Of a stretch of DNA of 64,000 nt, positions 560 to 61,277 are shown piece by piece. The position numbers and the translations under genes are program-made. How positions within the stretch are numbered: the stretch's first letter is position 1; every line of letters starts with the position of its first letter. The DNA comes from Sugiyamaella lignohabitans (taxonomy: Eukaryota > Ascomycota > Dipodascomycetes > Dipodascales > Trichomonascaceae): positions 2,046,001 to 2,110,000 of the forward strand of contig NC_031671.1 in the NCBI RefSeq assembly GCF_001640025.1, read 5' to 3'. The notes beneath the pieces were generated by a model. The model ran no database searches, had not been told where the DNA came from, and saw only the letters and a program-made list of their open reading frames with translations.

Positions 560-620
560 GCCTCCGGCGGCTGGGGCTCCGCCCCAGACCCCGTGGCTCG
601 CTTCGCTCGGTTGCTAGGAC
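560..620 (+). repeat. THE unit, degenerate third hairpin
   Basis: Hairpins 1 and 2 are intact; the third (GCTCGC then GCTCGG) is imperfect. Sense to the gene ending at 533 and antisense to INH1. Confidence 0.9.
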
Positions 621-743
621 CGTGGCGGGCGGGCGTATTTGTATTTTTGCTATTTAATTTGATTGACTGACATTGTTGTTTTCCACAATTATTAACTAAC
701 TGACTACTGAATAGAACGCAACGAACGATAGACGACAGACCGG

Positions 744-1197
744 TTATTTATTGTTCTTGGCCTTGATGTCGGCAATCTCCTTCTCCTTAGCAGCGCTACA
801 CCGTTAGCCATTCACTCAATTGACACTCCCACGTAACTACGACACTACTTACATCTCGGCCTTCAAAGCCTTGATCTTCTCAGCTTCGTGCTGACGGACA
901 TAATAGTCCTCATTAGCCTTCTCTCTCTTCTACAACCCCCCGTTAGTACTCTCTCCAGGACCCGTCACCCCTCCTCGAGCTTCGCTCGAGGAGCAACCAG
1001 GGTCTGGGGCGGAGCCCCAGCCGCCGGAGGCACACCCCCTTCCCCAAAAAACATACATTGAAAGCATCACCGCCCTGTTCGCCACGAGGAGCTCCGGTAG
1101 CACCCTCGGTGTAGTTGCGAGCAGCGACGAAAGCAGGGCTCGACAAAGCGGATCTGGCCAGTCGGAGACCGTTGGTACGCAGGACGATAGAAGACAT
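744..1197 (-). CDS. INH1: Mitochondrial F1Fo-ATPase inhibitor (IF1 family), two introns
   Basis: Small mitochondrial protein that binds F1-ATPase at low matrix pH and blocks ATP hydrolysis. Three exons on the minus strand: 1057-1197, 853-929 and 744-795, giving 89 residues. Exon 1 holds a presequence rich in Arg, Ser and Ala, ending near the NYTEG motif common in IATP proteins, then GAPRGEQGGDAF. Exon 2 starts KREKANEDYYVRQHE, the conserved inhibitory segment; exon 3 closes a charged C-terminal helix. Intron 1 (930-1056) has donor GTATGT and branch TACTAAC, and carries a THE unit. Intron 2 (796-852) has donor GTAAGT and branch GCTAAC. Phases join in frame (AAT/AAG and AT/C). Size and motifs fit yeast Inh1/Stf1. 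Confidence 0.9.
971..1031 (-). repeat. THE unit, type G, inside INH1 intron 1
   Basis: Sense orientation relative to INH1. Third hairpin has a 10-bp stem (971-993) with a 3-nt loop. Confidence 0.93.
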
Positions 1198-2220
1198 AGT
1201 TAGACTGGTGTGTTTTTGGCGAAGTTGTAGGATCAATTGACTTTTGGTGAAGTTAGCAATCGCTCGGGTGATAATCTGATCTGACAAGATCGCTCGCTGT
1301 CTTTCTGTCTCTCCTTCTTAACCACCTACGATTGGCCCGGTGCTGTGGCGTGGGGCTGACGCCAGGGCCCGGGTTGCTTGCGTCGTTCTTTGCAGAACCC
1401 TGTCTCACCCCGGTCACCTGCCGGGGGTCTCTGCAGCAGGGACCCACTTCGCTAACTGGGGTACATCTGGTGCTGGGGGGTGGGGGTTGCGCCTCCGGCG
1501 GCTGGGGCTCCGCCCCAGACCCCGTGGCTCCTCGAGCAAAGCTCGAGGAGGGCGTGGGGGGGTATCCAGGAGCTGATGGGCTCGGAGGGGTGGGTTCAGT
1601 TGACTCGGGGAAATGGGTGTAGATAGGGTAAGGGTGGTTGGTGTGGAAACAAGGTCGCGTAATAATGGCACGGCTGTGCTTCGAGAGAGTTTGGAGAGCG
1701 AGCGAGCGAGCAAGCGGGAGAGAGTGAGTAAGTGAGAGATTAGCGATAGGTTTGAGTTGGATGTTCCGTAAGTGACACTAATAGGAGCGGACACCGAAGA
1801 CGCGTGAATCAACCACGCAACACGGATTTTGTGCACCGACCGTTTGAGTAGCACTGGAAACGAGCCTTTTTTCTGCTCCCGCTTCTGTAAACTCCTAAAA
1901 ACCGGCAGATAAAAATCGAGTTCGCGGTTGTTGGAAACTGGCTTTCTCAACATCTGGATCAATCTCTATATATCAGTCACTTCAGGCACTAAAAGTGTTA
2001 GAGCTTTTTTGCTTACAACATTTGCTTCGTGTCATTGGTGATCTTTAGTGGGCTCGTTACACTTGTTCCAGAGCCCAGACCACCATCTGCTTTTTCGCTA
2101 TTTTGAGAGTCGATGACGCATGGTATCTGCTGCTGAACTGGCATATTCTTACGAATCGGGAATTGCACTTCATCACTTTGCAATTGTAATTAACGACATT
2201 TTTGTCGTTGCGACTTTGCC
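1198..2220. other. Intergenic region between divergent INH1 and SGF73
   Basis: Shared upstream region of two divergent genes. It holds one THE unit (1491-1550) and a GAGCGAGCGAGC run near 1697. Open frames here are translations of the repeat or low-complexity sequence. I see no further gene. Confidence 0.7.
1491..1550 (+). repeat. THE unit, type G with AAA loop
   Basis: Same 10-bp third stem as the INH1 intron copy but with loop AAA in place of TTC. Lies in a G-rich flank. Confidence 0.92.
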
Positions 2221-3868: not shown

Positions 3869-3943
3869 GCCTCCGGCGGCTGGGGCTGCGCCCCAGACCC
3901 CCCGGCTCCTCTCGCTTCGCTCGAGTCGTTGCGTCGACGGTCA
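3869..3943 (+). repeat. THE unit, type A
   Basis: Starts 79 bases after the SGF73 stop in sense orientation; keeps the GTCGACGGTC linker remnant of a full element. Confidence 0.92.
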
Positions 3944-3963
3944 CGGAAACTTGCTGGGGGGTC

Positions 3964-4031
3964 GGCCTCCGGCGGCTGGGGCACAGCCCCAGACCCCTCA
4001 GCTCCTCTCGCTGCACTCGAGTCGTTGCGTC
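3964..4031 (+). repeat. THE unit, type A, diverged
   Basis: Tandem direct copy of the preceding unit, with ACA replacing the loop of hairpin 2 and a substitution in the third stem. Confidence 0.88.
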
Positions 4032-4577: not shown

Positions 4578-4649
4578 GACCGTCGACATAACGACTCGAG
4601 CGAAGCGAGAGGAGCCGAGGTTTGGGGCGCAGCCCAGACGCCGGAGGCA
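4578..4649 (-). repeat. THE unit, type A, decayed hairpin 2
   Basis: Hairpins 1 and 2 have lost bases; the linker reads GACCGTCGACATAACGACTC. Direct tandem with the next unit, about 92 bases apart. Confidence 0.85.
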
Positions 4650-4668
4650 GACCCTCGGCAAGTTTCTG

Positions 4669-4743
4669 GGACCCTCGACATAACGACTCGAGCGGAGCGA
4701 GAGGAGCTGGGGGGTCTGGGCGCAGCCCCCGCCGCCGGAGGCA
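4669..4743 (-). repeat. THE unit, type A, decayed
   Basis: Sense to, and 52 bases beyond, the stop of the gene at 4796-5431. Hairpin 2 is eroded (GGGCGCAGCCCCC). Confidence 0.85.
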
Positions 4744-6499: not shown

Positions 6500-6577
6500 G
6501 CCTCCGGCGGCTGGGGCTCTGCCCCAGACCCCACTGCTCCTCTCGCTTCGCTCGAGTCGGTTCTGTCGACGGTACCA
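6500..6577 (+). repeat. THE unit, type A with linker
   Basis: Followed by TCTGTCGACGGTACCAG, a diverged copy of the full-element linker. Confidence 0.92.
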
Positions 6578-6597: not shown

Positions 6598-6657
6598 GCC
6601 TCCGGCGGCTGGGGCGTTGCCCCAGACCCCACTGCTCCTCTCGCTCCGCTCGAGTCG
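6598..6657 (+). repeat. THE unit, type A, loop TCC
   Basis: Direct copy 98 bases after the previous unit. Hairpin 2 loop GTT, third hairpin loop TCC. Confidence 0.92.
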
Positions 6658-6687
6658 GTTTCCGTGACAGCTTCCTCGAAGAATTCC

Positions 6688-6759
6688 TCGACGGTCCCAG
6701 CCAACTCCTGCGAAGCAGGAGCCACGGGGTCTGGGGCAGCGCCCCAGCCGCCGGAGGCA
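6688..6759 (-). repeat. THE unit, type B with linker
   Basis: Faces the unit at 6598; GACGGTCCCAGCCAA linker intact. The two may be a full element with an expanded centre. Confidence 0.92.
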
Positions 6760-7022
6760 CACCCCTCCCCCTGAATCCGGCTGCAATGCACCCCGTGACA
6801 CCAGTGACGTCGAATAGCGCTGATTAGGTCTGGTGCGGTGTGTCTGCACCACGCCCGTTTGATCTTCGGTCAATACTGCCTCGATCTCACTAACCAGCAG
6901 CGCTAGCCTCTGCCACGACGGCCACAGACCCGTCTTTTCGGCCATTTGCAGCTGCACGTTTCCTCCCCCTCACCCAGGCCTATTGGCCCGCTAGAGGCTG
7001 CCGTTAGGGGGGGTGTCAGACT

Positions 7023-7159
7023 GCCTCCGGCGGCTGGGGCTCTGCCCCAGACCCCGTGGCTCCTGCTTCGCAGAGTTGGCCGGGACCGTCGACGCAACCG
7101 ACTCGAGCGCAGCGAGAGGAGCAGCGGGGTCTGGGGCGGAGCCCCAGCCGCCGGAGGCA
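7023..7159. repeat. Full-length THE (B left, A right), 137 bp
   Basis: Head-to-head units joined by the linker GGGACCGTCGACGCAACC. The left third hairpin has one arm shortened (GCAGAG). Confidence 0.95.
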
Positions 7160-7704
7160 CGCTCCCTCCCCCCCCCTGGAAAATTAGAGTTGACAGGTTT
7201 GGTGCTGATCGGTGCATGTTTGGCAGGAGGTGGTAGGGGGACCGTTGATTAGCAGGGGGTTTAACTCCCGAATCTAGTGGTTTGTTAGGGTTCGTTGCCA
7301 TGATATTGGGCCAGGTACAGTGGAGAGGAAGTGGAGAGGAGAGTGGAGTTTTTGGTGGGGAGAGGCGGTTTCTGGCGGGTGGGTAGCGGAATTAGGGGGT
7401 AGCGGAGCGGGCCGAGTGAAAAGCCGATACACCCGCGATGGGAGGTTGCTCCATGACATCACCGACAGGCAGGCTTGTCCGATCGCATCACATCACGATC
7501 TGGTCGGTTGCGGTTGTGGTGGCGATCGCGGCGGCATGCGACCGCGCCAATGCCGGCGATCAGGGGATCTCGTCCCGGACCTAAGTCCGCTATACCCGTC
7601 CGGCACGCCGCATGTCCAGTCCGTAACCCTTATTTATAACCCAATTTCCACCATTTTTTTTCTTCTCTTTATTCATTTACAGATCACACCTCACCCTTCA
7701 TGAA

Positions 7705-7757
7705 ACTTCGCTCGAGGAGCCACGGGGTCTGGGGTAGCGTCCCAGAGCCCCGGAGAC
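7705..7757 (-). repeat. Decayed THE unit
   Basis: Hairpin 2 (GGGGTAGCGTCCC) and hairpin 1 (CCCCGGAGACA) have point changes; only half the third stem remains. Confidence 0.75.
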
Positions 7758-7817
7758 AGACTCTCCCCAGAGCGGCAATGGTCGCGAGAGCTACCCGGCC
7801 TGAAAGTTACCCGGGTG

Positions 7818-7832
7818 TAGGGTTAGGACCGT
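7818..7832 (+). promoter_or_regulatory. TTAGGG-containing motif shared with the OLE1 upstream region
   Basis: The 15-mer TAGGGTTAGGACCGT recurs exactly at 18222-18236. TTAGGG is the core bound by Tbf1-type factors in yeasts. It lies about 500 bases upstream of the 14-3-3 start. Confidence 0.35.
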
Positions 7833-8067
7833 CATTTAAAACCACCCAGCCCAGTCTTTTACAACAAAACAAAACAAAAAAGCCAACTGCAACCGCAAAC
7901 TAAAAGTGCCTGCTTGCTTAATCCACCCACCATCACCAATTCTGACTCTTATCTACCAGCTAACGCGATAACCGACCCATCGTCAGAAACTCGCACTCAC
8001 CACGCAAACGAACCCACGCTACTGCCACTGCCTGATAACATCCAATTGAGCGCGTAATCCAGCAAAA

Positions 8068-8331
8068 GTGAGTATCCACGCGCTTCTGGGGGGCCGGGGG
8101 TGTGCCTCCGGCGGCTGGGGCTCTGCCCCAGACCCCGTGGCTCCTCTCGCTTCGCTCGAGTCGTTTTTCGTGAGGGATCCCTGTTTTTTCTACACGATCC
8201 CAATCATCTCCTGCGAAAGCAGGAGCCACGGGGTCTGGGGCAGAGCCCCAGCCGCCGGAGGCAGCAACCCCCTCCCCCCCTCCCCCCCCGATCGAGGGTA
8301 GGTCAATTGAGGAGATTTCTAACAGTTGTAG
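8068..8331 (+). other. Putative 5'UTR intron of the 14-3-3 gene
   Basis: Donor GTGAGT at 8068, branch TTCTAAC at 8317-8323 and acceptor TAG at 8329-8331, one base before the ATG. The spacing matches the confirmed coding introns here. It contains an inverted pair of THE units. Confidence 0.6.
8104..8262. repeat. Long THE pair (A left, B right), 159 bp, in 5'UTR intron
   Basis: Inverted pair with a longer, unrelated centre than the usual linker; flanked on the right by long C runs. Confidence 0.93.
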
Positions 8332-8332
8332 A

Positions 8333-9151
8333 ATGTCAAGCACTACCCGTGAAGATTCTGTCTACCTCGCCAAGCTCGCAGAGCAGGCTGAGCGTTATGA
8401 AGAGATGGTCGAGAATATGAAAGCTGTCACATCACTTGGCGAGGAGTTGAGTGTTGAAGAGAGAAACCTTTTATCGGTGGCTTATAAGAATGTGATTGGA
8501 GCCCGTCGTGCTTCGTGGAGAATCGTGTCGTCCATTGAACAGAAGGAGGAGAGTAAGGGTAACGAGGTACAAGTGGCTCTTATTAAGGAATACAGACAAA
8601 AGGTTGAGGCCGAGCTTGCCAAGATCTGTGAAGATATCCTCGAGGTTCTTTCGAAATACTTGATTCCATCTGCTCAAACTGGTGAGTCCAAGGTGTTTTA
8701 CTACAAAATGCAGGGCGATTATCACCGTTATTTGGCCGAGTTTGCTGTTGGTGATAAGCGTAAAGAAGCTGCTGATAAGTCGCTCGAGTCGTATCAATCC
8801 GCTTCGGAAATCGCCGGTGTCGAGTTACCTCCTACTCATCCTATTCGTCTTGGTTTGGCTCTTAATTTCTCGGTGTTCTACTATGAAATCCTTAACTCGC
8901 CCGATCGTGCTTGTCATTTGGCCAAATTGGCTTTTGACGACGCCATTGCCGAGCTCGACACTTTGTCCGAGGAGAGTTACAAGGACTCCACTTTGATCAT
9001 GCAATTGCTCAAAGATAACCTTACTTTATGGACCGGTGATATGTCTGAAGTTGCTCCTGAGGCCCCTGAAGAGCCTGTTGCTCCTGCTGCTGCTGCTGCT
9101 TCTGGTGTTAAGGACGAGTCCGAGCCTAAAGATGCTGCTGTTGCCGAATAG
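8333..9151 (+). CDS. BMH1: 14-3-3 protein (Bmh1/Bmh2 family)
   Basis: Dimeric phosphoserine/phosphothreonine-binding adaptor acting in cytosol and nucleus on many signalling, metabolic and trafficking clients. The 272-residue protein has the family start [17 protein letters not shown], the segment [20 protein letters not shown], the groove residues in [17 protein letters not shown] (here [12 protein letters not shown]), and the near-universal ends [10 protein letters not shown] and [19 protein letters not shown] (here LLKDNLTLW). The last 30 residues are the usual variable tail, here Ala/Pro/Glu-rich. Only one copy is seen in this window. A putative 5'UTR intron ends one base before the ATG. 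A sense THE unit lies 271 bases after the stop. Confidence 0.95.
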
Positions 9152-9422
9152 ATTGACTAATTGAAGACCGCACCGGGGCACTTCTGTTGTGCTTAACAGG
9201 CAGGAATATGATCGAGCCGCCGCCCGTCGAGTTCGGAATACACACAAAAAAATCGTCTACCCTACAATCACAACCACTAAAATAATCAAAATAATGTATG
9301 CTCGCGGCCCGGCTCTTTTGCTTTCTTTGTCGTGTCTTTTTTTAAATTATTAGTGCTATTATTATCTATGGCAATATGTTATTTTTCTCTGCGGGTCTTC
9401 CTGGGGTCTTCCTCGAGGGTCT

Positions 9423-9479
9423 GCCTCCGGCGGCTGGGGCGCTGCCCCAGACCCCGTGGCCCTCTGCTTCGCAGAGGGA
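9423..9479 (+). repeat. THE unit, type E
   Basis: Only copy seen with stem CCTCTGC/GCAGAGG, showing paired change on both arms relative to type B. Confidence 0.93.
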
Positions 9480-10059
9480 GGCATACACGGACCCGATATG
9501 GGGTGAATGGGGTACGGTTGATGGAGTTGGGACGAGATGGGGTGTTAACTTAGAATCACTGGATAGAATTGTACTGACCAGATCATTGGATGAGCGTCCG
9601 GGAGATGCGTGTTTGCCAGCAGACCACTGCACCAGCAGTATCGGTTAGGTGTCCATTCCGCAATGGCGCTGATGTCTCAGACAGGAGGGACGCGCTGCTG
9701 CTCCTGCTGCTGCTGCTGCTGACGATGATGTCTCTCCTGCTTCTCCCGCTGCTCCTGCATTCTGATATACAATTCTAAAGGGATTTATTTTGCCGTATTC
9801 TTCGCAATTTATATTCCAGAGAACCTGTCAGAAACACCAACTGACACTCGAACTCATAGACTCACCGCGCTGACGGAGCCCGATATCGCACTCCTCTCGG
9901 CCAGGGGGTGGAAAATTCCATCTGCAGCTACCCCTGAAATACACACATTGAATATCGTGCATAAGTACTCCACCGACCTCCACCCAACACCCCCCCTCTC
10001 ACCCTCCTCCAACCACCTCAAATTTCCACCCACCGCAACTAACCCGTCTCCCCACGCCC

Positions 10060-10119
10060 GACTCGAGCGTAGCGAGAGGAGCCGGGGGGTCTGGGGCGCA
10101 GCCCCAGCCGCCGGAGGCA
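10060..10119 (-). repeat. THE unit, type A, loop TAC
   Basis: Single unit upstream of TVP15, antisense to it. Confidence 0.92.
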
Positions 10120-10386
10120 GTGCCCCCCTTCAAGCATCGCCGCTCCCGCTAGAACACTAGTCCCGCCACCAGGGCTAGGGCCGGAAATGAGCTGGCGGGT
10201 TATCAGGGTGCAGCAGCAGGAGCATGTGAGAGGCAGTGAACCAGGGTCAAGAGTCTGATTGCGAGTCTTGATTTTTTTTGATTTGTTCTCATCGAAACCG
10301 CTTTTTTCAGTGATATCCGACCGCAATTAAGCCATTGCCGGTCCTACTACCCCGATACCGCCGTTTTCACCTCCGCAAACCGCAAA

Positions 10387-11211
10387 ATGAGTCTTGTGTC
10401 GTCCGACCTCACCAACGTCTTCCGCATCGCCAACCTCGCCGTGGGCGCTCTGGCGGTCCTAGGAGGCGTCTCGCAATTCTTCCCCGTGTCTTTGTAAGTT
10501 CTTCGGGGTGACGGACTGCCTCCGGCGGCTGGGGCTTCGCCCCAGACCCCGTGGCTCCTGCTTCGCAGGAGTTTCGTGGGAGTTCCGCTCGATGGGGGGT
10601 CAGAACCAGTCTCCACGGTCCTAGCAATCTCCTGCGAAGCAGGAGCCACGGGGTCTGGGGCGAAGCCCCAGCCGCCGGAGGCATTGACCCCGTTACCTAG
10701 AAAGTGAACCAGGAACTAACAGCTGCCAGCCAATCCGTACGTCGACCGGCCACTGCCAATGAACCGAGTGGTTACTAACGAGTTTGCAGTCGATTATTGC
10801 GATTTACGTGATTCTATTTGGTCTGGGACTCGGGTTTTTGGGTACGTAACTAGAGGATTACCTCCGGCGGCTGGGGCTCTGCCCCAGACCCCGTGGCTCC
10901 TGCTTCGCAGGAGATGGCTGGGATCGTGGAGTGATGCTAACAGGGATGTAGAGTTCCAGGTGCCGCCAAAGACGAGTCGATACGCCTCGTTTTTGTTCTC
11001 GTTTGTCGGACGAGGGGTGCTGTATGTGTTCATAGGCACCATTTTGCTGCACGACCACGTTCTCCGTATCATTGCCGGGTCCATTATCGCTCTTGTGGGC
11101 GTCATTTACATCGTTCTCGAGTTCATTCCATCCATTGAACCCCCCGAGAACATGCGAATCAGCGACCTCAGCCTGTCTGGCGACTACGAAAACGCCTCGG
11201 ACACTCTATAA
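10387..11211 (+). CDS. TVP15: Golgi membrane protein Tvp15 (COPI-associated family), four exons with a 7-nt micro-exon
   Basis: Integral membrane protein of late Golgi/Tvp complexes with four predicted membrane segments. Exons 10387-10493, 10730-10736, 10790-10841 and 10952-11211 give 141 residues. The product reads through FFPVSFQ, IIAIYVILFGLGLGFLEFQVPP, SRYASFLFSFVGRGVLYVF and LHDHVLRIIAGS to LEFIPSIEPPENMR, all matching Tvp15 in order. The reading frame is restored only by a 7-base exon (CCAATCC) preceded by branch GAACTAAC and a CAG acceptor and followed by GTACGT. Intron 1 (236 bp) holds a THE pair, intron 3 (110 bp) a single unit, and intron 2 is 53 bp. The micro-exon should be confirmed by cDNA; the rest is firm. 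Confidence 0.88.
10518..10682. repeat. THE pair (B/B), 165 bp, in TVP15 intron 1
   Basis: The only inverted pair here with two B units; its centre is longer than the usual linker. Confidence 0.93.
10861..10929 (+). repeat. THE unit, type B with linker, in TVP15 intron 3
   Basis: Sense orientation; followed by ATGGCTGGGATCGT, the left part of the full-element linker. Confidence 0.93.
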
Positions 11212-11250
11212 ACTTCCCTCTAATAAAATATCTCCTGTCACACCCCCACG

Positions 11251-11303
11251 CCTCGAGCGAAGCGAGCTACGGGGTCTGGGGCAGCGCCCCAGCCGCCGGA
11301 GGC
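11251..11303 (-). repeat. THE unit, A-like, diverged
   Basis: Antisense, 40 bases after the TVP15 stop; an exception to the sense rule. Confidence 0.9.
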
Positions 11304-11326
11304 ACACCCCGACTCCGAGAGATACC

Positions 11327-11383
11327 GCCTCCGGCGGCTGGGGCTCCGCCCCAGACCCCGTGGTGCTCCGCTTCGCGGAGCTG
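11327..11383 (+). repeat. THE unit, type D
   Basis: Stem GCTCCGC/GCGGAGC. Lies 78 bases upstream of the U5-40K start codon, so possibly in its 5'UTR or promoter. Confidence 0.93.
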
Positions 11384-11460
11384 CACAGCCTTGCATGGTG
11401 CAAAATAAGTCGCATGTCGTGAACCTGCGGAGTTCAGGCTGGAGAGTGAGGGAGTGAAAA

Positions 11461-12477
11461 ATGTCGGTTGTTAAAAGACCGAGGGTTGAAAGTGCTGGAT
11501 CTGGTTCCTTGATAGCGGGGGGAGGAGTGGATGGTAGAACGGAGCAGATAACGAGTTCGTTGAGCTCGCCAAATGTGCAATTGTCGGGGCACGAGGCAGA
11601 GGTGCTAGCGGTGCAGTTCGATGCGACGGGGTCGTTTATTGCGTCGGGTTCGGCAGATAAATCGATTTTGTTGTGGAATTCGGCAGGTGAAAACGAGAAT
11701 TATGGTGTTATTAATGGCCATAAAGGAGCTGTATTGGATATTAGATGGTCTAGAGACAGTTCGCAGCTATTTTCATGCTCTACAGATCTGTCGTTAGGTG
11801 TATGGGACGTCGAGTCTGGTTCACGATTATTGAAACAAGTTGGTCACGATGATATTATTAATTCTATTGACATTATAAAACGAGGAACTGAACTGGTTAT
11901 ATCAGGAAGCGACGATGGAACAATTGGAATTTGGGATCCTAGACAGAAGGAGTCGGTCAGTTATATCCAGACCGAGTTCCCAATACTGGCAGTAGCAGCT
12001 ACTTCAGTTGGAGATCAGGTTTTTTCTGCCGGAGTTGAAGGCACTATTCACTCGTGGGATTACAGATACCCGTCGGCTCCTGTTTATACTCTTCCTGGCC
12101 ACGGAGAGACCAATATCACCGGACTGGCGGTGTCACCAGATGACCAGCAGCTGGTATCAAATGGCATGGACAACACTGTCCGAACATGGAACGTTCGTTC
12201 GTTCACTTCAGACAATCGAACACTTCAAGTGTACGACGGAGCACCTCACGGAATCGAACAGAACCTGCTCCGAGCCCGCTGGTCACCCGACGGATCCCGC
12301 ATCGCTGCCGGCTCCGCAGACCGCACCGTCGTCATCTGGGACGTCCCGTCCCGACGAATCCTCTACAAACTCCCTGGCCACATCGGCTCTGTCAACGACG
12401 TGTGCTTCTCGCCCACCGAACCGGTCATTGCATCTGCCTCGTCCGACCGGTCGGTCATTCTCGGCGAAGTCAACTGA
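11461..12477 (+). CDS. U5 snRNP 40-kDa WD40 protein (SNRNP40/Spf38/Cwf17 family)
   Basis: Predicted spliceosomal WD40 protein contacting Prp8 in the U5 snRNP. It has 338 residues and seven WD repeats forming one propeller. Family marks include VKRPR near the N-terminus, LSGHEAEVLAVQF, LLWN, KGAVLDIRW, the segment SGSDDGTIGIWDPRQK, LVSNGMDNTVRTWNVR, the insertion with IEQNLLRARWSPDGSRIAAGSADRTV, RRILYKLPGH, and SASSDRSVILGE at the end. The order and spacing match human SNRNP40. S. cerevisiae lacks a close ortholog, so its presence fits a lineage that kept many introns. No intron is needed in this model. Confidence 0.9.
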   Translation: MSVVKRPRVESAGSGSLIAGGGVDGRTEQITSSLSSPNVQLSGHEAEVLAVQFDATGSFIASGSADKSILLWNSAGENENYGVINGHKGAVLDIRWSRDSSQLFSCSTDLSLGVWDVESGSRLLKQVGHDDIINSIDIIKRGTELVISGSDDGTIGIWDPRQKESVSYIQTEFPILAVAATSVGDQVFSAGVEGTIHSWDYRYPSAPVYTLPGHGETNITGLAVSPDDQQLVSNGMDNTVRTWNVRSFTSDNRTLQVYDGAPHGIEQNLLRARWSPDGSRIAAGSADRTVVIWDVPSRRILYKLPGHIGSVNDVCFSPTEPVIASASSDRSVILGEVN

Positions 12478-12491
12478 TAAGGGGGCCTTGT

Positions 12492-12553
12492 GTGCCTCCG
12501 GCGGCTGGGGCTCTGCCCCAGACCCCGTGGCTCCTCTCGCTTCGCTCGAGTCG
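12492..12553 (+). repeat. THE unit, type A
   Basis: Sense, 14 bases after the U5-40K stop, hence almost certainly in its 3'UTR. Confidence 0.94.
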
Positions 12554-12593
12554 TGCGTGGAGTTGATCCAGTTCGCGTGACACCCCCCACGCC

Positions 12594-12653
12594 CGACTCG
12601 AGCGCAGCGAGAGGAGCCACGGGGTCTGGGGCAGAACCCCAGCCGCCGGAGGC
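12594..12653 (-). repeat. THE unit, type A
   Basis: Sense to the LAA2-like gene, 65 bases beyond its stop; faces the previous unit between two convergent genes. Confidence 0.94.
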
Positions 12654-12718
12654 ACGGTCTCCCGCCCATGAAAAATGGCTGTATATTTATATTTTCGGGC
12701 TCTGGTACCCGGTCGCGG

Positions 12719-14212
12719 TTATTTGGACCGGGTCCGTAGTCTTTGAGCATACTCTAATAAACTTTCTATGACTCCTTCGAAGGTCTCTTTGTCTTGGGAA
12801 GCTGCTTGCAGCAGTTGCTGCCATTGGGTCGACATGGCTTGTGCTTCTATTAATGCTTTTTGTAGGGTGGACACATGGGTCTGAAGCTCGGGCTCGTTCA
12901 TGCCGTCTAATGCTTCGCTCGTCACCGTGGACAGCTGGTGCCATGCGGCCAGCTTGATTTGCGTGTCTTGTCGTAGCGCCTCTTTTTCGTCGTCCGATTT
13001 CTTGTCTCGTGAACTGACGTCGTTAGATTTGCCTTCTGGAGTGGTGCTGGTGGTGGTGTTGGTAGGTCCTGGTCCAGATCCAGCTTTCGCAGGGCTCTTT
13101 TTACTGTCTGTATGGTTGCTCTTGCGGGGTGTATTTGGCAGCACCAGTCGTTTGGTGTTTTTATTAGGCAGGATCTCGTCGAGATCCAGTGGAATTCCAA
13201 GTGACACTAGCAATAGCCGGCGAATGGACGACTTTTTCCAGTCGGTAGGATGCATATGGGGTCCGTCGACTACCAGCTGCTGCCACAGCGAGGCACTTCT
13301 TTCTGAGAAGTATGACCCTGGTTCGGTTACGTGATATTGATAGCTTCGTTCCGACGACGGGGTCGGTGTTCTTTCTATAGTAATTGACCTTTGAAGATGT
13401 GAAATGGATGCGTTTGTTTGGGATTGTTCTTCGGACGACTTCCACATGGCCTTGAGTGTCGACAGCACCGACGCCTGTAATTGAGCAGAATTGGAAAAGT
13501 CTGTTTCTGACAGGCATGGGATATGATTAATAGTGCCAGCAGGTGTGGTTTCTGATGTTGAAGGTGCTGGTAATGGGGACTCAGTGGAGGCTGGTGGTGG
13601 ATCAAAGCCGTCGTCAGCCAGATCCAGTTCGTCAGATTCAGCTGGCTGTGCTTCTTCGAACTCGTCGAACTCGTCAAAATCATCGAATTCGCCAAAATCG
13701 TCATCTTCAGCGATGTTGTCATTGTCCTCTTGGGGTTCCTCTTGGGGTTCTGAATCTTCAACAGGCACGTCCAGCGTCTCTGGAATTGCCGAACTTTGGT
13801 CGTCAGCTGGATCTTCTGTAGTTTTGTGATTGTCATTTTCATCTTCTAAAGCTTCATTCTCATTCAGTTCATGTTCGTTTTCTGAATTGCTACGAAGTTC
13901 ATATTGCAATTCTTCCGTCGCCGGCGGTTGATCCAGCTTGTCATTTTCGTCGACGGTCCCAGCAAACTCCTGCGAAGCAGGAGCCACGGGGTCTGGGGCG
14001 GAGCCCCAGCCGCCGGAGGCAGTGCCCAATTGCCCCACGTCCTCGTCCAGCCCGGTTTCCAGCGACTCAAGCTGTGATTCATGCCCGTCGGGGCTGGCAG
14101 ATTCGTGAATTGATCCCGGGTCTGTGGAATCCGAGTCGTCTTGGACAGTACCCAGGTCTCCGGCGTCGTCGAAACGGTCTTTTTCAGATCCTGTTTCTGT
14201 GTCAGGAGCCAT
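12719..14212 (-). CDS. LAA2-like AP-1 accessory protein (YBL010C/LAA2 family) with an in-frame THE insertion
   Basis: Probable accessory factor of the AP-1 clathrin adaptor at the trans-Golgi/endosome. The 497-residue protein is Asp/Glu-rich and disordered in its first half, with an acidic DDDFGEFDDFDEF segment resembling the acidic-phenylalanine motifs of aftiphilin-type clathrin accessories. The conserved block is at about residues 290-350: SERSASLWQQL, then WKKSSIRRLLLVSLGIPLDLDEILP and KRLVLPN. The C-terminal 100 residues are predicted coiled coil (STQWQQLLQAASQDKETFE). A THE unit (13950-14020) is read in frame as about 24 residues near 65-88 ([16 protein letters not shown]), with no splice sites around it. 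Divergent from the J-protein gene. Confidence 0.68.
   Translation of the reverse strand: MAPDTETGSEKDRFDDAGDLGTVQDDSDSTDPGSIHESASPDGHESQLESLETGLDEDVGQLGTASGGWGSAPDPVAPASQEFAGTVDENDKLDQPPATEELQYELRSNSENEHELNENEALEDENDNHKTTEDPADDQSSAIPETLDVPVEDSEPQEEPQEDNDNIAEDDDFGEFDDFDEFDEFEEAQPAESDELDLADDGFDPPPASTESPLPAPSTSETTPAGTINHIPCLSETDFSNSAQLQASVLSTLKAMWKSSEEQSQTNASISHLQRSITIERTPTPSSERSYQYHVTEPGSYFSERSASLWQQLVVDGPHMHPTDWKKSSIRRLLLVSLGIPLDLDEILPNKNTKRLVLPNTPRKSNHTDSKKSPAKAGSGPGPTNTTTSTTPEGKSNDVSSRDKKSDDEKEALRQDTQIKLAAWHQLSTVTSEALDGMNEPELQTHVSTLQKALIEAQAMSTQWQQLLQAASQDKETFEGVIESLLEYAQRLRTRSK
13950..14020 (-). repeat. THE unit, type B, inside a coding sequence
   Basis: The only unit lying within an apparently functional ORF. 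Sense orientation; hairpins and GACGGTCCCAGC linker are intact, so the insertion looks recent. Confidence 0.94.
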
Positions 14213-34778: not shown

Positions 34779-34783
34779 ATCAA

Positions 34784-35170: not shown

Positions 35171-35175
35171 TAAGG

Positions 35176-45162: not shown

Positions 45163-46527
45163 ATGAAGTTACCAACATCAGTGTCATTGTTCGCATTAAC
45201 ATTACTGCAATGTGTGTATAACACAGTTGCCATCACAGTCGATTTCCAGGATGATACCTCGTTAAACAACGCTCTTGCACTAGTGGCGGATGGTTTGATG
45301 GATTATTATAATGGTGACCAATATGGAGGTACTCCTGGTATGTTTGTTAACCCATACTATTGGTGGGAGGCTGGTGCTGCCTTTGGAAGTATGCTTGATT
45401 ACTGGTTTTATACTGGTAACACCACCTACAACGATGTTATAAAAGCTGGTATGTTGTACCAGACTGGCAAAAACAACGATTACATGCCATCAAACCAGAC
45501 CACCACTGAAGGTAACGATGATCAAGGATTCTGGGGTATTCTTGTAATGGACGCTGCCGAAAAGAACTTTAGCAATCCTGATCCCGACCAAGCACAATGG
45601 CTGTCTCTTGCTCAAGCTGTTTTCAATACCATGGCATCTCGTTGGGATACTGACACTTGTCATGGTGGTCTTAGATGGCAGATTTTCACTTGGAACAACG
45701 GTTATAACTATAAGAATTCGGTGGCCAATGGATGTTTCTTCCATATGGGAGCCCGACTAGCCAGATACACTGGAAACACTACTTATTCAGACTGGTCCGA
45801 GAAAGTCTGGGATTGGATGACTACAGTTGGATTCATCAATGAAACCAGCGGACAATTGATTGACGGTGCTGATATTTCGACCAACTGTACAACTCACACT
45901 CCATATGAGTGGACTTATAACTACGGTCTTTTCACAGCTGGAGCTGCTTATTTGTATGACTTCACTAACGACACTAAATGGCTGACCCGAGCACAATTGC
46001 TCATGGAACGTGGCAGCAGCATCTATTTTGACGACGGTGTCATGTTTGAAGCTGCCTGTCAGAACACTGGCAGATGTAACAACGATCAGAGATCGTTCAA
46101 GGCCATTTATTCGAGATTCCTTGGTCTCACTGCACAATTGGCTCCACCTATGGCCGACCAGATCATGAATCTTCTGTCGAGCTCGGCCGCTGCTGCCGCT
46201 ATTTCTTGTAGTGGAGGAACTGATGGCCACACTTGCGGACTGAACTGGAACGTGGGAAAATGGGACGGAGTCTGGGGACTTGGCGAGCAAATGTCGGCCC
46301 TCGAAGTCATGCAAAACACCCGTGCCTTGCAAATCGCTAAACCACTAACAGCGCATACCGGAGGTAGTTCAAAGGGAAACCCCGCCGCCGGCTCCGATTC
46401 GGGAACCTCGAACTTCCTCACGAACTCGCTCGACATCTCAAGCAAAGATCGCGCCGGTGCCGGTATCCTGACGGCCCTGCTCGCGGTCGGCATTGTGGGC
46501 ACTGGCTGGTGGATGATGAAGCAGTAG
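45163..46527 (+). CDS. DFG5: GPI-anchored GH76 family protein (Dfg5/Dcw1), copy 1
   Basis: Cell-surface enzyme thought to act on the alpha-1,6-mannan backbone and to cross-link GPI proteins to wall glucan. The 454-residue protein has a signal peptide (LPTSVSLFALTLLQCVYNTVA), the GH76 fold with YYWWEAGAAFGSMLDYW, TEGNDDQGFWG (the paired Asp catalytic motif), GGLRWQIFTWNNGYNYKNSVANGC and TCGLNW. The end is a GPI signal: a small-residue site near SSKDRAGAG followed by ILTALLAVGIVGTGWWMMKQ. Several N-glycosylation sites. It lies tail-to-tail with a close paralog at 47419-48780; DFG5 versus DCW1 cannot be assigned. Confidence 0.92.
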   Translation: MKLPTSVSLFALTLLQCVYNTVAITVDFQDDTSLNNALALVADGLMDYYNGDQYGGTPGMFVNPYYWWEAGAAFGSMLDYWFYTGNTTYNDVIKAGMLYQTGKNNDYMPSNQTTTEGNDDQGFWGILVMDAAEKNFSNPDPDQAQWLSLAQAVFNTMASRWDTDTCHGGLRWQIFTWNNGYNYKNSVANGCFFHMGARLARYTGNTTYSDWSEKVWDWMTTVGFINETSGQLIDGADISTNCTTHTPYEWTYNYGLFTAGAAYLYDFTNDTKWLTRAQLLMERGSSIYFDDGVMFEAACQNTGRCNNDQRSFKAIYSRFLGLTAQLAPPMADQIMNLLSSSAAAAAISCSGGTDGHTCGLNWNVGKWDGVWGLGEQMSALEVMQNTRALQIAKPLTAHTGGSSKGNPAAGSDSGTSNFLTNSLDISSKDRAGAGILTALLAVGIVGTGWWMMKQ

Positions 46528-46589: not shown

Positions 46590-46650
46590 GCCTCCGGCGG
46601 CTGGGGCTGCGCCCCAGACCCCCCGGCTCCTCTCGCTGCGCTCGAGTCGT
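46590..46650 (+). repeat. THE unit, type A, loop TGC
   Basis: Sense, 62 bases past the stop of GH76 copy 1. Confidence 0.94.
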
Positions 46651-47140: not shown

Positions 47141-47189
47141 CGACTCGAGTGTAGTGAGAGGAGCCAGGGGGCCCCAGCCGCCGGAAGCA
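47141..47189 (-). repeat. Decayed THE unit, type A
   Basis: Most of hairpin 2 deleted (GGGGGCCCCAG); third stem reads CTCGAGTGTAGTGAGAG. Confidence 0.85.
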
Positions 47190-47287: not shown

Positions 47288-47347
47288 CGACTCGAGCGCA
47301 GCGAGAGGAGCCGGGGGGTCTGGGGCGCAGCCCCAGCCGCCGGAGGC
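47288..47347 (-). repeat. THE unit, type A
   Basis: Sense, 71 bases past the stop of GH76 copy 2. Confidence 0.94.
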
Positions 47348-47418: not shown

Positions 47419-48780
47419 TTAGATGAGCATCCACCAGGAGGTGGCCAGCAGGCCGATGATGACGATGGCGGTGATGACACCGGCACCGGCCTTGTCTTTG
47501 GTGCCGATGGTGAGCTCGTCGACAGTGAGGACGTTGTCGGACGAGTTGAGACCAGCGGCACCAAAACCGCCAGAGGGACCGCCGGACTTTTCGGTCAGAG
47601 GGCCAGGTCTGGTGTTAATGAGCAGGGTGTTGAAAGTGTCAAGAGCACAGATCTGCTCTCCAAGACCCCAGACACCGTCCCAGCCATTTTTAAACCAGTT
47701 GAGACCACAGGTGTGACCGTCGGTACCTCCCGAACAAGATGCAGCAGCAGCTTTGGCCGATGATTGGATAAGTGGCATGATCTCGTCTTGTAACGAGGGA
47801 ACCAACAACATGGTCAGACCAAGGAATCGAGAATAAATACCCTTGAAACAACGTTGATCGGTATTACACTGGTTAGAAGGTTGACAGGCAGCTTCATACA
47901 TGATTCCATCCTCATTGAAAAAGACCTTACCTCTGCTCCAGAGCATTTCCAAACGGTCGAGCCAGACGGTTTGGTTGGTGTAGTTGTATAAATAAGCACA
48001 GCCAGAAATAAACAGACCGTAGTTATAGGTCCATTCGAGGTTTCTGACATTGGTACAGTTGGCTTCCACATAAGCTCCGTCATATACAAAGGTTTGGTTG
48101 ACAAAGGTCTGGTTGAGAAAGTTTACACCTTCTGCCCAGTTCCAAACCCGCTCGGCCCAGTCAACATAAGAATTATTACCAGTATATCTGGCCAAACGAG
48201 CACCAATATGGAACAGACATCCATTGGCTACCGAGTTCTTGTAATCATAACCACCGTTCCAGGTGAAAATCTGCCAACGGAGACCTCCATTACAGGTCTG
48301 AGTGTCCCAACGAGACGCCATAGTGTTAAATACACCCTGAGCCAAGTACAGCCAACTTGGATTACCAGGACCAGGATCGGAAAAGTTCTTTTCAGCAGCT
48401 GCCATGACAGTAACACCCCAATAACCCTGATCATCGTTACCTTCAGTGGTGGTCTGGTTAGACGGCATATAATTCCAGTCCTTACCAGTTTGGAAGAGCA
48501 TACTGGACTTAATAATGTCGACGTAAGTGTCGTTCTGGGTGTAGTACCAGTAGTCCAACATAGTACCCCAGGCCACACCGGCTTCCCACCAATAATATGG
48601 ATTTGAGAACATACCGGGGGTCTGACCGGTCTGGTTACCGTTGTAATAATCCATCAGACCCTGGGCTACCAGTGCTTGGGCTCCATATATACTTTCAACC
48701 GAAGTCTCGTCGAGGGTTAATGAGGTAGCCTGTTGCACGAGCAGAGCAACCGATGCTGTGATGAGTGTGAGGAACTTCAT
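47419..48780 (-). CDS. DCW1: GPI-anchored GH76 family protein (Dfg5/Dcw1), copy 2
   Basis: Paralog of the gene at 45163, 453 residues, with signal peptide MKFLTLITASVALLVQQATS, MFSNPYYWWEAGVAWGTMLDYWYY, the catalytic TEGNDDQGYWG, GGLRWQIFTWNGGYDYKNSVANGC, CSGGTDGHTCGLNW, and a GPI end (TKDKAGAGVITAIVIIGLLATSWWMLI). Similar over its whole length to copy 1, with a short extra stretch near LNQTFVNQTFVYDG. The tail-to-tail arrangement implies an inverted duplication followed by divergence. In S. cerevisiae Dfg5 and Dcw1 are jointly essential; the pair here may be the equivalent. Symbol assignment is arbitrary. Confidence 0.92.
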   Translation of the reverse strand: MKFLTLITASVALLVQQATSLTLDETSVESIYGAQALVAQGLMDYYNGNQTGQTPGMFSNPYYWWEAGVAWGTMLDYWYYTQNDTYVDIIKSSMLFQTGKDWNYMPSNQTTTEGNDDQGYWGVTVMAAAEKNFSDPGPGNPSWLYLAQGVFNTMASRWDTQTCNGGLRWQIFTWNGGYDYKNSVANGCLFHIGARLARYTGNNSYVDWAERVWNWAEGVNFLNQTFVNQTFVYDGAYVEANCTNVRNLEWTYNYGLFISGCAYLYNYTNQTVWLDRLEMLWSRGKVFFNEDGIMYEAACQPSNQCNTDQRCFKGIYSRFLGLTMLLVPSLQDEIMPLIQSSAKAAAASCSGGTDGHTCGLNWFKNGWDGVWGLGEQICALDTFNTLLINTRPGPLTEKSGGPSGGFGAAGLNSSDNVLTVDELTIGTKDKAGAGVITAIVIIGLLATSWWMLI

Positions 48781-49768
48781 GATGATGATGATGAGTTGAT
48801 GGAATGAGCAAGTGAGTGCAGAGATATCAACAAGAGAGTGATATCGAGATAACTAGCAAATGACTAGAGGTGTAGATATCGAACAGATGTCGAGTAAAAA
48901 ATACAAGAAATATCAAGTAAATATACCGAATAAACCAGATACAATCAGATGTCGATACTAACAGTCGAGGACAAGCTGAAAAGTCTCTCGAATAACACAC
49001 ACAGCTGATGTGACAAATCGAGATCTTTGAGAGAATATCCGAGATTTAATATGTTCAGAAACCTGAAAACCCGAGTCGATGAGCAGCACGATTCAGTTGA
49101 AACCACAAAGAAACGGTAATAATTAGCGAACGGAACTAGTACGCGTAATAATAATAATAATATCAGCAGAAGCAGACCGGATAATGAACGACAGCCAAAA
49201 CTCTTTATAATCAATCAAGCTGACACGGTCAAGCGTGGACGTCACAGAGCACAGAGCACAGAACACTTGCGAGAAGGTCACAGTCACACCTGTGAAGAGA
49301 TTGAATACAAAAAAAAGCCTAAGCCTTAGAAATAAGATCTCACTTCCGATTCGAGCTAGGCCTGTGGTCTAAAATTTTCAGCCTCAAAGGTTGCTTGTTA
49401 ACGCTAGCAGCAGCCTGATTATATCTAAGATAAAGCACTTAGAAACCGACCCAAAAGCAGTTTTTTCCAAAACCCAAAAAAAAAAAAGGAAGTACAAAAC
49501 CGGGCAAACGAAAATAGTAATTCACACAAAACTCGATGATGCCGAGTACAAGCGAAAGCTACTGTACGTAAGTAAGTCTAAGTCTATCACCAGCCCTTCC
49601 CTCTCGCACCCTCTCCCTCCCCTCCTTCCCTTCCCAGATGTCTCTGTCTCGGTTGACCTGATAAGCCGCAGCCGTTGCTGCAGCACCTGCAGCCCACCAG
49701 CACACAACAGGCAATGGGGCCCCGTAGCTAAAATTAACCACCTCAGCCGCCCGCGCGGCCCGGTCCTC

Positions 49769-49827
49769 GACTCGAGCGAAGCGAGAGGAGCCACGGGGTC
49801 TGGGGCAGAGCCCCAGCCGCCGGAGGC
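49769..49827 (-). repeat. THE unit, type A
   Basis: Back-to-back with the next unit, 22 bases apart. Confidence 0.93.
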
Positions 49828-49849: not shown

Positions 49850-49900
49850 GCCTCCGGCGGCTGGGCTCCGCCCAGACCTGGTTGTGCTCGCTTCGCGAGC
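49850..49900 (+). repeat. Short THE unit, type C
   Basis: Short hairpin 2 (CTGGGC/GCCCAG) and linker ACCTGGTTGTG as in the VMA10 intron 1 copy. Confidence 0.93.
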
Positions 49901-50134: not shown

Positions 50135-50270
50135 TGCCTCCGGCGGCTGGGGCTCCGCCCCAGACCCCGTTGCTCCTGCTTCGCAGGAGTGGCTGGGACC
50201 GTCGGCGGAACGACTCGAGCGCAGCGAGAGGAGCCGTGGGGTCTGGGGCGCAGCCCCAGCCGCCGGAGGC
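50135..50270. repeat. Full-length THE (B left, A right), 136 bp
   Basis: Canonical linker GTGGCTGGGACCGTCGGCGG. Located 136 bases before the tRNA-Thr. Confidence 0.96.
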
Positions 50271-53181: not shown

Positions 53182-53241
53182 GCCTCCGGCGGCTGGGGCT
53201 CCGCCCCAGACCCCGCTGCTCCTCTCGCTTCGCTCGAGTCG
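53182..53241 (+). repeat. THE unit, type A
   Basis: Left member of an inward-facing A/A pair, about 190 bases from the Ppc89-like start. Confidence 0.93.
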
Positions 53242-53358
53242 TTTCGTGGGGTGCCCCGAGTGCGAGGTGGTCGAGGATGCGTTTGGCACTGGTCCACCAC
53301 CACCCAAAACCCCGCTACAACAAGGACTCCTCGACCTAACTGGACCCCCCACACAACC

Positions 53359-53417
53359 GACTCGAGCGAAGCGAGAGGAGCAGCGGGGTCTGGGGCGGAG
53401 CCCCAGCCGCCGGAGGC
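53359..53417 (-). repeat. THE unit, type A
   Basis: Right member of the pair, 130 bases before the URA5 start. Confidence 0.93.
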
Positions 53418-54266: not shown

Positions 54267-54320
54267 GCCTCCGGCGGCTGGGGCGCTGCCCCAGACCCCG
54301 TTGTGCTCGCTTCGCGAGCG
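54267..54320 (+). repeat. THE unit, type C
   Basis: Sense to URA5; nearly identical to 15681 over all three hairpins. Confidence 0.95.
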
Positions 54321-58318: not shown

Positions 58319-58371
58319 GCTCGCGAAGCAAGCACAACGGGGTCTGGGGCAGCGCCCCAGCCGCCGGAGGC
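58319..58371 (-). repeat. THE unit, hybrid C/F stem
   Basis: Third stem GCTTGC/GCGAGC pairs with one G-T. Sense to SEC65, 22 bases past its stop. Confidence 0.92.
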
Positions 58372-58393
58372 AGATCCTCACACCAAACACGCT

Positions 58394-59257: not shown

Positions 59258-59600
59258 TATGAAACTGAAACTGGTCAAACAAAGTCACTACAGTCGAGAA
59301 CGATCTGGCTACAGAACAGCTGTACAGAGTGTTTTTCAACAGTTGGGATCAACTCCAGTTCATAAAGTGCTTGAACCATATGTTATCAGTCCAGGGAGGG
59401 TAACACAATGATACCCCATTTTTTTCAGTTTTCGACCGACCCTCCCAACCAGGTTTACCCTGCGCTCCCGATTAGGCAATGTAATTGACTTCGAGGCTCT
59501 CGAACCCATAAAACGGAACTTATAAGCGACTAAGCCATCTAATTTTCTGATCTCTGATTTAAACTCTCAGAGACTAATTCGACTATCTCACTACCGTAGA
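59258..59600. other. Divergent promoter, SEC65 and YPQ-type gene
   Basis: 343 bases without THE or other recognised feature. Confidence 0.55.
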
Positions 59601-60915
59601 ATGGTTTTGGCACCTATATCCAACATAGATCACTATGCTGTGAGCGGGATCACTGGGTGAGTCAAGAATATCGCCCGTCCCTGCGACTACCGTCCCCGGC
59701 CCGAATATCTCCACTCCAGAGCGCTCCTGGGATCGTAGACGTCCGACTCGAGCGAAGCGAGAGGAGCCACGGGGTCTGGGGCGAAGCCCCAGCCGCCGGA
59801 GGCATGGCCGGCTCCGTCAATGAAAAGCTAACCCTTTCAGATCTATCTCCATTGCCTGCTGGATTATTGTGTTCACCCCGCAACTTTATGAAAATGTGAG
59901 TTGCTTGTGAAGCTCCCTGAATCCTCTAATTCGGTTCTATTACTGCTTGAAGAAGAAGAAAAAATTGGGAATCAGGCGTGAATACAGGGTCGAGGACTGA
60001 AAGCTAACGGGGATAGTTTAAAAGACAGAGTGCCGATGGTCTGTCACTGACGTTTATCGTGCTGTGGCTAGCCGGCGATATTTTTAATGTCATTGGTGCG
60101 ATTCTACAAGGCGTTCTTCCTACAATGGTAAGTTTTGAATCCAGCGATTTGTGATGCGTTAGTCAGAAATGTTTATGCTTGGAAAATAGGATGAGTTGGA
60201 TGGCTAACTGGGACAGATCATTCTGGCTATTTACTATACACTGGCAGATATCGTGTTACTGGGCCAGTGTCTCGTTTATAACAGGAGACAAGAGGCAGTG
60301 GACCCGTCGCATTTGTCGCCAGCGACGCCACTTTTGCACAGCGGTATTGAAGATGAAGTTGACAGCGGTTACGGAACACAAACATCGGAAGTAGTGGCCG
60401 AACCAGAATTAGAAACACCTCAGCCATTTTGGAAAACCGCTCTGTATAACACCATCATTGTCCTGCTGGTGCTGTCGGCGGGAGTCGTGGGCTGGGCTCT
60501 GTCGTCGAAAAACCAGAAACCAGATGAGCCACATATCCCCGAAGACGACACTCCACTCGAGATGAACATGCTCGGTCAAGTGTTTGGATACCTGTGTGCA
60601 GTTCTGTATTTAGGTTCACGGATTCCCCAGCTTCTGCTCAATTATAGACGCAAGTCTTGCGACGGAATCAGTTTCCTGTTTTTCCTGTTTGCATGTCTTG
60701 GAAACCTGACCTATGTCATTTCCATCCTGGCCAACGACATTTCCCGAGAGTATCTTATCATCAACGCTTCGTGGCTTATTGGAAGCGTGGGAACACTGTT
60801 TTTGGATGGAATCATCTTCATTCAGTTTTGGATCTATAGTGATCTTACCGATGATTTCGACAGCGATACGTCCTCTTCTGACTCTGGCACCGATATCGAG
60901 TCCTCCAGAGTATAG
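59601..60915 (+). CDS. YPQ1: PQ-loop vacuolar basic amino acid transporter (Ypq/PQLC2 family), four exons
   Basis: Seven-span vacuolar transporter for lysine/arginine. Exons 59601-59656, 59841-59895, 60017-60127 and 60217-60915 give 306 residues. Exon 2 encodes ISIACWIIVFTPQLYEN, the first PQ motif; exon 3 encodes SADGLSLTFIVLWLAGDIFNVIGA; exon 4 opens IILAIYYTLADIVLLGQCLVY. The second PQ motif is SRIPQLLLNYRRKSCDGISFLFF, followed by two spans and an acidic Ser-rich tail. All donors are GTGAGT or GTAAGT and each intron has GCTAAC just before its acceptor, except that the last has GGCTAAC. Intron 1 (184 bp) holds an antisense THE unit. YPQ1, YPQ2 and YPQ3 cannot be told apart here. Confidence 0.88.
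59744..59803 (-). repeat. THE unit, type A, in YPQ intron 1
   Basis: The only intronic single unit in antisense orientation. Preceded by GGGATCGTAGACGTCC, a linker remnant. Confidence 0.94.
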
Positions 60916-61277
60916 AACGAGAGCTTGGACTTCTCTACAGACCAGGTTCGCTAGAAAACCGACGCTTTCTTGTCTATTGATAATTTGTCATGAACAAACT
61001 GTTAGCGTCTTCTCGTCTATTTATACCCACTTATGACAGTATATAGTGCATTGTATATTATAAAACTTGTTATCTGACATGAGGTGTTCTGGGAGGGTGC
61101 TGCCTCCGGCGGCTGGGGCTTCGCCCCAGACCCCGCTGCTCCTCTCGCTGCGCTCGAGTCGGGCTTGGGGGGTCCAGTATTTTTGGGAAGTTCCAGTTTT
61201 TGGTGGAAATGGGGGTCGAAATCCAGGGGTAATGTACGGCTAAATTTTTTATTTTCAGATAACCCGACCTGCAGAAG
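60916..61277. other. Gap between YPQ-type gene and RRN9-like gene
   Basis: One THE unit; AT-rich sequence with CTAAATTTTTTATTTTCAG at 61241, a possible 5'UTR intron acceptor for the next gene. Confidence 0.5.
61102..61163 (+). repeat. THE unit, type A, loop TGC
   Basis: Last unit in the window; sense to the YPQ-type gene, 186 bases past its stop. Confidence 0.93.

Follow-up and report, generated by a model that had tools for sequence, protein, structure and literature searches.

Short GC-rich hairpin units dispersed through the nuclear genome of the yeast Sugiyamaella lignohabitans

What are the short GC-rich hairpin units that recur along a 64,000-nt stretch of contig NC_031671.1 (the window), and did they reach their places as mobile DNA? 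The window was analysed together with 19 regions (L009-L027), each of 10 kb and drawn between them from all of the four contigs, 254 kb in total (the sample). A 62-bp unit profile was built from 138 copies with an exact start out of window and sample; searches with it gave 72 units in the window (560 to 61161), in agreement with an earlier note on this DNA that had counted about 72 up to 61.2 kb, and 189 in the 254 kb. The 18-base start GCCTCCGGCGGCTGGGGC had 70 matches in the window at ≤3 mismatches (0.05 expected from shuffles), and a genome search with it, proposed in that note, returned 6,511 copies at ≤1 mismatch (3,248 and 3,263 on the two strands; reversed-pattern control 0). From the 117 units in the 190 kb of the 19 regions only, the genome total was put at 9,811 units, with 6,624 to 13,081 as the bootstrap range, or roughly ten thousand in a yeast of 16 Mb. 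We know of few mobile-looking families in any nuclear genome that would rival this one for small size and density. An even chance is given to the family being a mobile DNA of the yeast nucleus, very small, without coding capacity and non-autonomous, where mobility itself is what we infer.

The host is nuclear DNA of the budding yeast Sugiyamaella lignohabitans (Trichomonascaceae), since "Rad4p [Sugiyamaella lignohabitans]" matches an open frame of L012 at 100% identity, a review describes this species as having 16.0 Mb on 4 chromosomes with 5S genes dispersed among them (PMC5499181), and one 5S gene was detected in the window by Rfam scan. The genome searched comprised 15.93 Mb in 4 contigs. 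The dispersed nuclear hairpin family of the earlier note was borne out, with thousands of copies in the genome; confinement to one contig or contamination, named there as a refutation, does not apply, as sampled regions of all four contigs carry units. An assembly artefact or contamination was rejected, given thousands of start copies genome-wide and the identity of the Rad4p frame to S. lignohabitans. Unit density was uneven (0 to 15 per 10 kb among the 19 regions, 3/19 empty), the window being a dense stretch by comparison, and rose with GC content outside units (rho 0.83, 19 regions). The latter spans 0.40 to 0.49 over the 19 regions, a hint of broad GC domains in the genome. In the Rfam scan of the window no family reached threshold over a unit; only two tRNAs and the 5S rRNA did.

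Units are 54-62 bp long with a sharp 5' end between T and GCCTCC (base -1 was T in 151/166 units with intact start). The order is T, GCCTCCGGCGG, then CTGGGGC-nnn-GCCCCAG-ACCCC, then a third part of type A (CTCCTGC/GCAGGAG stem), B (CTCTCGCTNCGCTCGAGTCG, an interrupted stem; 86/188 units by motif), C (perfect CTCCTCGAGC stem) or D. The earlier note had described three successive hairpins (HP1 to HP3) with 3-nt loops. The 3-nt loops held in part; three hairpins as a folding unit were not supported. For three single units that were folded, two hairpins each were predicted, the first of which uses bases of both HP1 and HP2; the 3-bp stem of HP1 was unused in all three, part of its sequence lengthening HP2, and a perfect HP3-region stem of at least 4 bp with a 3-nt loop was present in 78/188 units and absent from 110/188. 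The A, C and D stems differ in sequence with complementarity kept, as expected if source copies were held to a hairpin, a point tempered by the 110 units without such a stem. Among 178 units with canonical HP2, 1 pair had changed with compensation and 32 had changed otherwise, as expected if inserted copies drift and decay after insertion.

The arrangement that stands out, and that was absent from the earlier description, is an asymmetric inverted doublet of about 135 bp made of an A arm, a spacer (often similar to GGCTGGGACCGTCGACGAAACG) and a B arm. Neighbouring pairs within 300 bp were inward in 46 cases and outward in 10 (p = 1e-6), compared with 18 inward and 25 outward at 301-1500 bp. 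Inward pairs with outer ends 125-141 bp apart numbered 28 in the sample, 10 of them in the window; by arm class these were A+B 16, B+unclassed 5, A+unclassed 4, B+D 2 and D+D 1, with no A+A or B+B. A further 18 inward pairs were wider (154-265 bp), with other DNA between the arms, and include A/A and B/B; clusters of three to six units also exist, part of them tandem duplications (spacings 68, 94, 97). A doublet (L001:1501-1635) was used as query against the genome, and 40 of 2,672 candidates were scored; these best 40 were non-self full-length matches at 83-93% identity, genome-wide, of which 31 began at query position 1500-1501 and stopped at 1634-1638, and none ran more than about 20 bases into the flanks.

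The flanks of units were examined for duplication and composition. No clear target-site duplication was found at 48 solo units (longest flank match 4.73 versus 4.59, sd 0.14, permuted), nor any consistent excess over lengths 2 to 12 at 39 inward pairs with intact ends; doublet flank identity was slightly raised at 2 bases (0.23 versus 0.18) and 11 bases (0.33 versus 0.28). The 5' flank of units is G-rich: among 307 runs of at least five G outside units, 71 lay upstream of a unit, on its own strand and at most 15 bp away, and 3 lay at the mirror position; 39 lay downstream of a unit at up to 30 bp. The G-tract may be the target or part of the element. The ends recur sharply at scattered places and copies lie in frame in two genes, which argues for insertion as far as the sequence can tell. 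The in-frame units are in an LAA2-family gene (window 12719-14212, minus strand; A unit at 13964-14020, minus) and in Rad4 (L012, unit start 8505), both upstream of the Pfam domains; in the LAA2 frame there is no Met between unit and domain, and the region of the unit is poorly conserved, the five best non-self homologues covering 53-58% where coverage is given. Units within open reading frames (ORFs) of at least 150 aa numbered 42/189; four of five such ORFs scanned carried a Pfam family, and several others look spurious. In the sample, 56/88 ORF-defined intergenic gaps held units, with 43 units in 17.3 kb between convergent, 37 in 37.4 kb between divergent and 46 in 36.8 kb between tandem ORFs, and 72/126 were nearer a gene 3' end, compared with 39% of random intergenic points.

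A clue to the folded form is given by the loops, most of which, taken from the complementary strand, have the form G-N-A within a closing C-G pair. On that strand the HP3 loop was GNA in 84/86 B, 42/44 A and 20/21 D units, the HP1 loop GGA in 163/168 and the HP2 loop GNA in 115/170 with intact stem. Among perfect hairpins (stem at least 6, 3-nt loop), C-GNA-G occurred in 178/237 inside units versus 3/80 outside. In HP3 of 93 B-like units, 22/23 positions had an entropy of at most 0.24 bit, and the loop centre had 1.65 with all four bases; the B HP3 pattern had 3,145 exact copies genome-wide (control 0), with centre base T46 G29 C13 A12 among the first 100 matches listed. In RNA read from the other strand the same loops become C-UNC-G, a form not known to be especially stable. 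According to PMC4686876, DNA mini-hairpins with a GNA triloop and two or more G-C pairs are extraordinarily stable, so the C-GNA-G loops suggest, without proving, a single-stranded DNA stage. A DNA versus an RNA intermediate was left open for mitochondrial GC clusters and hairpin elements in the sections of PMC4478555 and PMC2800124 concerned; the loop signature offers a sequence test for the choice, and the mechanism can be tested, since the host is a yeast whose genome is assembled to chromosome level.

The mechanism proposed builds on the observed copy number, sharp ends, doublet layout, absence of a clear duplication, G-rich 5' flank and C-GNA-G loops. The spreading unit would most likely be the doublet, foldable into one long hairpin; singlets would be half-elements, either remnants of doublets in which one arm has decayed or been lost, or copies that spread alone. 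Multiplication would proceed via a single-stranded DNA hairpin exposed at replication forks and cut and rejoined by an enzyme that recognises hairpins and works in trans, be it HUH-like or not (none was found), with insertion beside G-rich tracts ending in T and no duplication of the target.

Domains of candidate enzymes were sought in the genome. The MULE (Mutator-like element) transposase had 0 matches (3/14 control genomes match), and the Helitron Rep domain (PF14214) had 0 in the genome and none in the control genomes either; RVT_1 had thirteen matches and DDE_1 matched at two loci. A longer, coding element sharing the unit ends did not turn up in the sample, where it was not sought systematically and hAT and other DDE families were unsearched.

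Several results weigh against mobile DNA spreading as a DNA hairpin. The Y1 transposase of the RAYT (REP-associated tyrosine transposase) type (PF01797) had 0 matches in six frames, introns ignored, and 5/14 control genomes match. No empty site, that is a duplicated flank without a unit, was found in self-comparison of the sample, in that of all loci or with a query from near one chromosome end. The mobility suggested in the earlier note is supported in part, by the sharp ends and in-frame copies. Four long interspersed nuclear element (LINE) copies of about 5 kb (L032-L035), 96-99.8% identical and apparently young, hold no unit (the unit of L034 lies outside the LINE match), and recent unit activity is therefore unsupported. 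The doublet at 50136-50270 folds as strongly as RNA (z -8.7 and -10.9) as it does as DNA (z -8.6 and -9.6 on the two strands), and a lone B unit as DNA folds no better than shuffles (z -1.1 and -0.9). Non-GNA loops AGA (25) and AGC (23) occur in HP2, the A loop centre is nearly fixed (TTC in 97/100 among the matches listed), and all loop counts share ancestry and hence are no independent tests. The arms of one doublet were uncorrelated (junction p = 0.69, junction class p = 0.17, HP2 loop p = 0.40); doublets may accordingly be old, gene conversion may have reshuffled them, or they may have formed from singlets. Nor are doublets clearly better kept than other units: by raw counts, cores were perfect in 42/56 doublet arms, 28/36 arms of wide pairs and 65/97 others.

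Among known systems the closest likeness is to bacterial REPINs, the hairpin-forming doublets of repetitive extragenic palindromic (REP) elements. As in the account of REP elements given in part of Bertels and Rainey 2011 (PMC3116915), short palindromic units stand alone, in inverted doublets or, in some cases, in tandem clusters; a doublet folds into a single long hairpin, and the units are non-coding, high in copy number and mostly outside genes. The same part describes REP singlets as less alike than doublets, whereas the yeast singlets seem nearly as intact as doublets. The yeast family further differs in its eukaryotic nucleus, in the missing Y1 match and in its two unlike arms A and B. 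With the REPIN layout present and no REP-type transposase found, the family is, by analogy, best called REPIN-like and not a REPIN member. The analogues named in the earlier note, Allomyces double-hairpin elements and the GC clusters of yeast mitochondrial DNA, fit less well, as the combination of singlets and inverted doublets is that of REPINs. According to the passages of PMC4478555 on them, the GC clusters share short GC palindromes and merged and shuffled units and show presence/absence dynamics; unlike the present family, which is nuclear and without clear duplication, they are mitochondrial with a putative AG target duplication. Allomyces double-hairpin elements and the repetitive hairpin elements (RHE) of sponges are likewise hairpin elements, the former stated to lack flanking duplications in the portion of PMC2800124 that treats them. 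Both are mitochondrial, unlike the copies studied here, which lie on nuclear chromosomes. We know of no inverted A/B doublet in either.

The core of the unit was also sought outside this genome. Its 28 fixed bases were found in 4 stretches of a prokaryote collection of 257 billion bases (chance about 0.001 at 65% GC), namely in Solidesulfovibrio aerotolerans and in metagenome-assembled genomes (MAGs) of a Desulfovibrionaceae, a Desulfovibrio and an Acetobacteraceae member (L028-L031). These genomes hold 1 to 8 copies each at ≤2 mismatches, with other sequences in the place of HP3; the Acetobacteraceae MAG (L030) has the core as an inverted pair (6766, plus, and 6872, minus). At ≤1 mismatch the core occurred in 1/395 sampled genomes of one phylum (that of genome G001). 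This sharing may equally reflect transfer or convergence. Further GC hairpins of similar layout were seen in Desulfovibrio-group DNA (L029:3276-3433, L028:2514). Viral contigs gave 0 exact core matches, a 30-bp partial plasmid match in Mycobacterium gordonae was taken as chance, and the translated doublet had 95 candidates in other organisms, 0 of them at E ≤ 0.001. The fullest form of the proposal, a eukaryotic nuclear counterpart of REPINs in which a single-stranded DNA hairpin replicator is shaped by C-GNA-G stability, uses an unknown enzyme and shares its core with rare bacterial copies by transfer or DNA-stability convergence, is put forward tentatively and considered rather unlikely.

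Of the other explanations, the one that survives best is passive spread without a dedicated enzyme, in which stable hairpins stall replication or repair and are copied to G-rich sites by template switching or ectopic gene conversion. The 0 matches for Y1 and MULE transposases, the shuffled look of doublet arms, the density that tracks GC content outside units and the tandem duplications of units all agree with it, but conversion would, in our judgement, usually leave less than what is seen, namely a single sharp 5' end preceded by T and the same doublet ends at scattered loci whose flanks do not match. Passive spread is considered unlikely.

Miniature inverted-repeat transposable elements (MITEs) and foldback elements are non-autonomous, inverted-repeat, nuclear and high in copy number, as is the yeast family; MITEs carry target duplications and share their ends with a coding parent. 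For the yeast family neither a target duplication nor a coding parent with the same ends was found, the parent not having been sought systematically. A classical terminal-inverted-repeat MITE, mobilised by a DDE transposase and with its target duplications since decayed, would account for an inverted-repeat doublet of MITE size, the DDE_1 matches and the slight rise in flank identity at 2 and 11 bases. A duplication would give far more than this rise, and there is little or none at other lengths from 2 to 12 although 42/56 doublet arms have perfect cores; singlets are abundant, and no longer relative with the same ends appeared in the sample within the limits given above for the coding element, all of which makes a MITE quite improbable.

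The doublet at 34710-35253 bears on reverse transcription. It is old, with an A-like arm (34710-34760) and a decayed B arm (35195-35241), and its spacer is split by an insert of about 0.4 kb (34775-35175) with an internal inverted repeat, which may reflect inversion during insertion. The insert has relatives in several places of the genome close to RVT_1 matches, and on that account we infer that it is LINE-derived; it lies between GGTTGGGACCGTC and GGCTGGGACCGTC, which match at 12/13 bases, in contrast with the units. The insert had also been considered as a parent transposon, with an extended inverted repeat and seemingly the same ends, and was rejected when the genome search showed a separate repeat. 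A short interspersed nuclear element (SINE)-like origin, in which a small structured RNA is copied by the LINE-type reverse transcriptases of the genome, could draw on the thirteen RVT_1 matches, on this insert with its near-exact 13-base flanking copy and on the strong RNA folds of the doublet; the units themselves have no such duplication, no tail was seen, and HP2 changes show no excess keeping G-U pairing (11 wobble-type transitions versus 13 not), so that it is rated very improbable.

That the units are no parasite but a host element kept by selection, such as a terminator, insulator or mRNA 3' signal, is scarcely credible: they are denser between convergent than between divergent or tandem ORFs and lie nearer gene 3' ends than random points, a bias that promoter avoidance would yield as well, but 3/19 sampled 10-kb regions have no unit, copies are split about evenly between the two strands of the genome, two genes carry a unit in frame and HP2 stems decay without compensation.

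No description of this nuclear hairpin family was found in literature searches, which did not cover the 2016 genome paper (Bellasio et al.), Repbase or Dfam; the available parts of PMC7235400 and PMC13155455 held nothing on it, and Sugiyamaella occurred 0 times in that of PMC13155455.

The units of the window, placed by the profile search, are distributed as follows. Inverted doublets are of A/B order at 21042-21177, 27441-27575, 37417-37554, 44077-44215 and 50136-50270 (the one folded as DNA and RNA) and of B/A order at 24973-25108 and 41894-42029; an A-like arm, spacer and B arm make up 7023-7158, an A arm and a B-like arm 32087-32222, and a B arm and an A-like arm 40256-40393. Wide inward pairs lie at 6598-6758 and 8104-8262 (both B, A), 10518-10682 (A, A), 12494-12653, 33779-33981 and 53182-53417 (all B, B) and 30511-30742 (D, short HP3 variant). 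Outward pairs consist of units at 11252-11303 (minus) and 11327-11369 (plus), an A unit at 40729-40786 (minus) with a B unit at 40807-40866 (plus), and a B unit at 49768-49827 (minus) with a unit of shortened HP2 at 49850-49899 (plus). Two B units stand in tandem at 3869-4024 (plus; 3869-3928 and 3965-4024, starts 96 bp apart) and again at 4592-4742 (minus; 4592-4648 and 4684-4742, starts 94 bp apart), and a B unit at 6500-6559 (plus) is in tandem with the pair 6598-6758.

Single B units occupy 16906-16965 (on the 5' side of a Methyltransf_16 gene), 27836-27895, 46590-46649 and 61102-61161 (folded) on the plus strand, and 10059-10118, 18565-18624, 22849-22908, 28349-28408, 43243-43303, 47288-47347 and 59744-59803 on the minus strand. 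Single A units are found at 10861-10916 and 42890-42948 (both plus), and single D units at 15681-15730, 26722-26761 (HP2 stem shortened on both sides) and 54267-54318 (plus) and at 17340-17392 and 58320-58371 (minus). C-type singles lie at 972-1031 (minus, with the perfect stem) and 1491-1548 (plus), a short HP3 variant at 560-613 (plus), a single unit with HP3 stem CCCTCTGC at 9423-9473 (plus), and decayed units at 7700-7745 and 47141-47187 (both minus). Apart from the units, the window contains an inverted pair of diverged similar sequence (45277-46292 and 47651-48675, 69% identical over about 1 kb) and a direct repeat at 25552-25789 (offset 78 bp, 86% identical).

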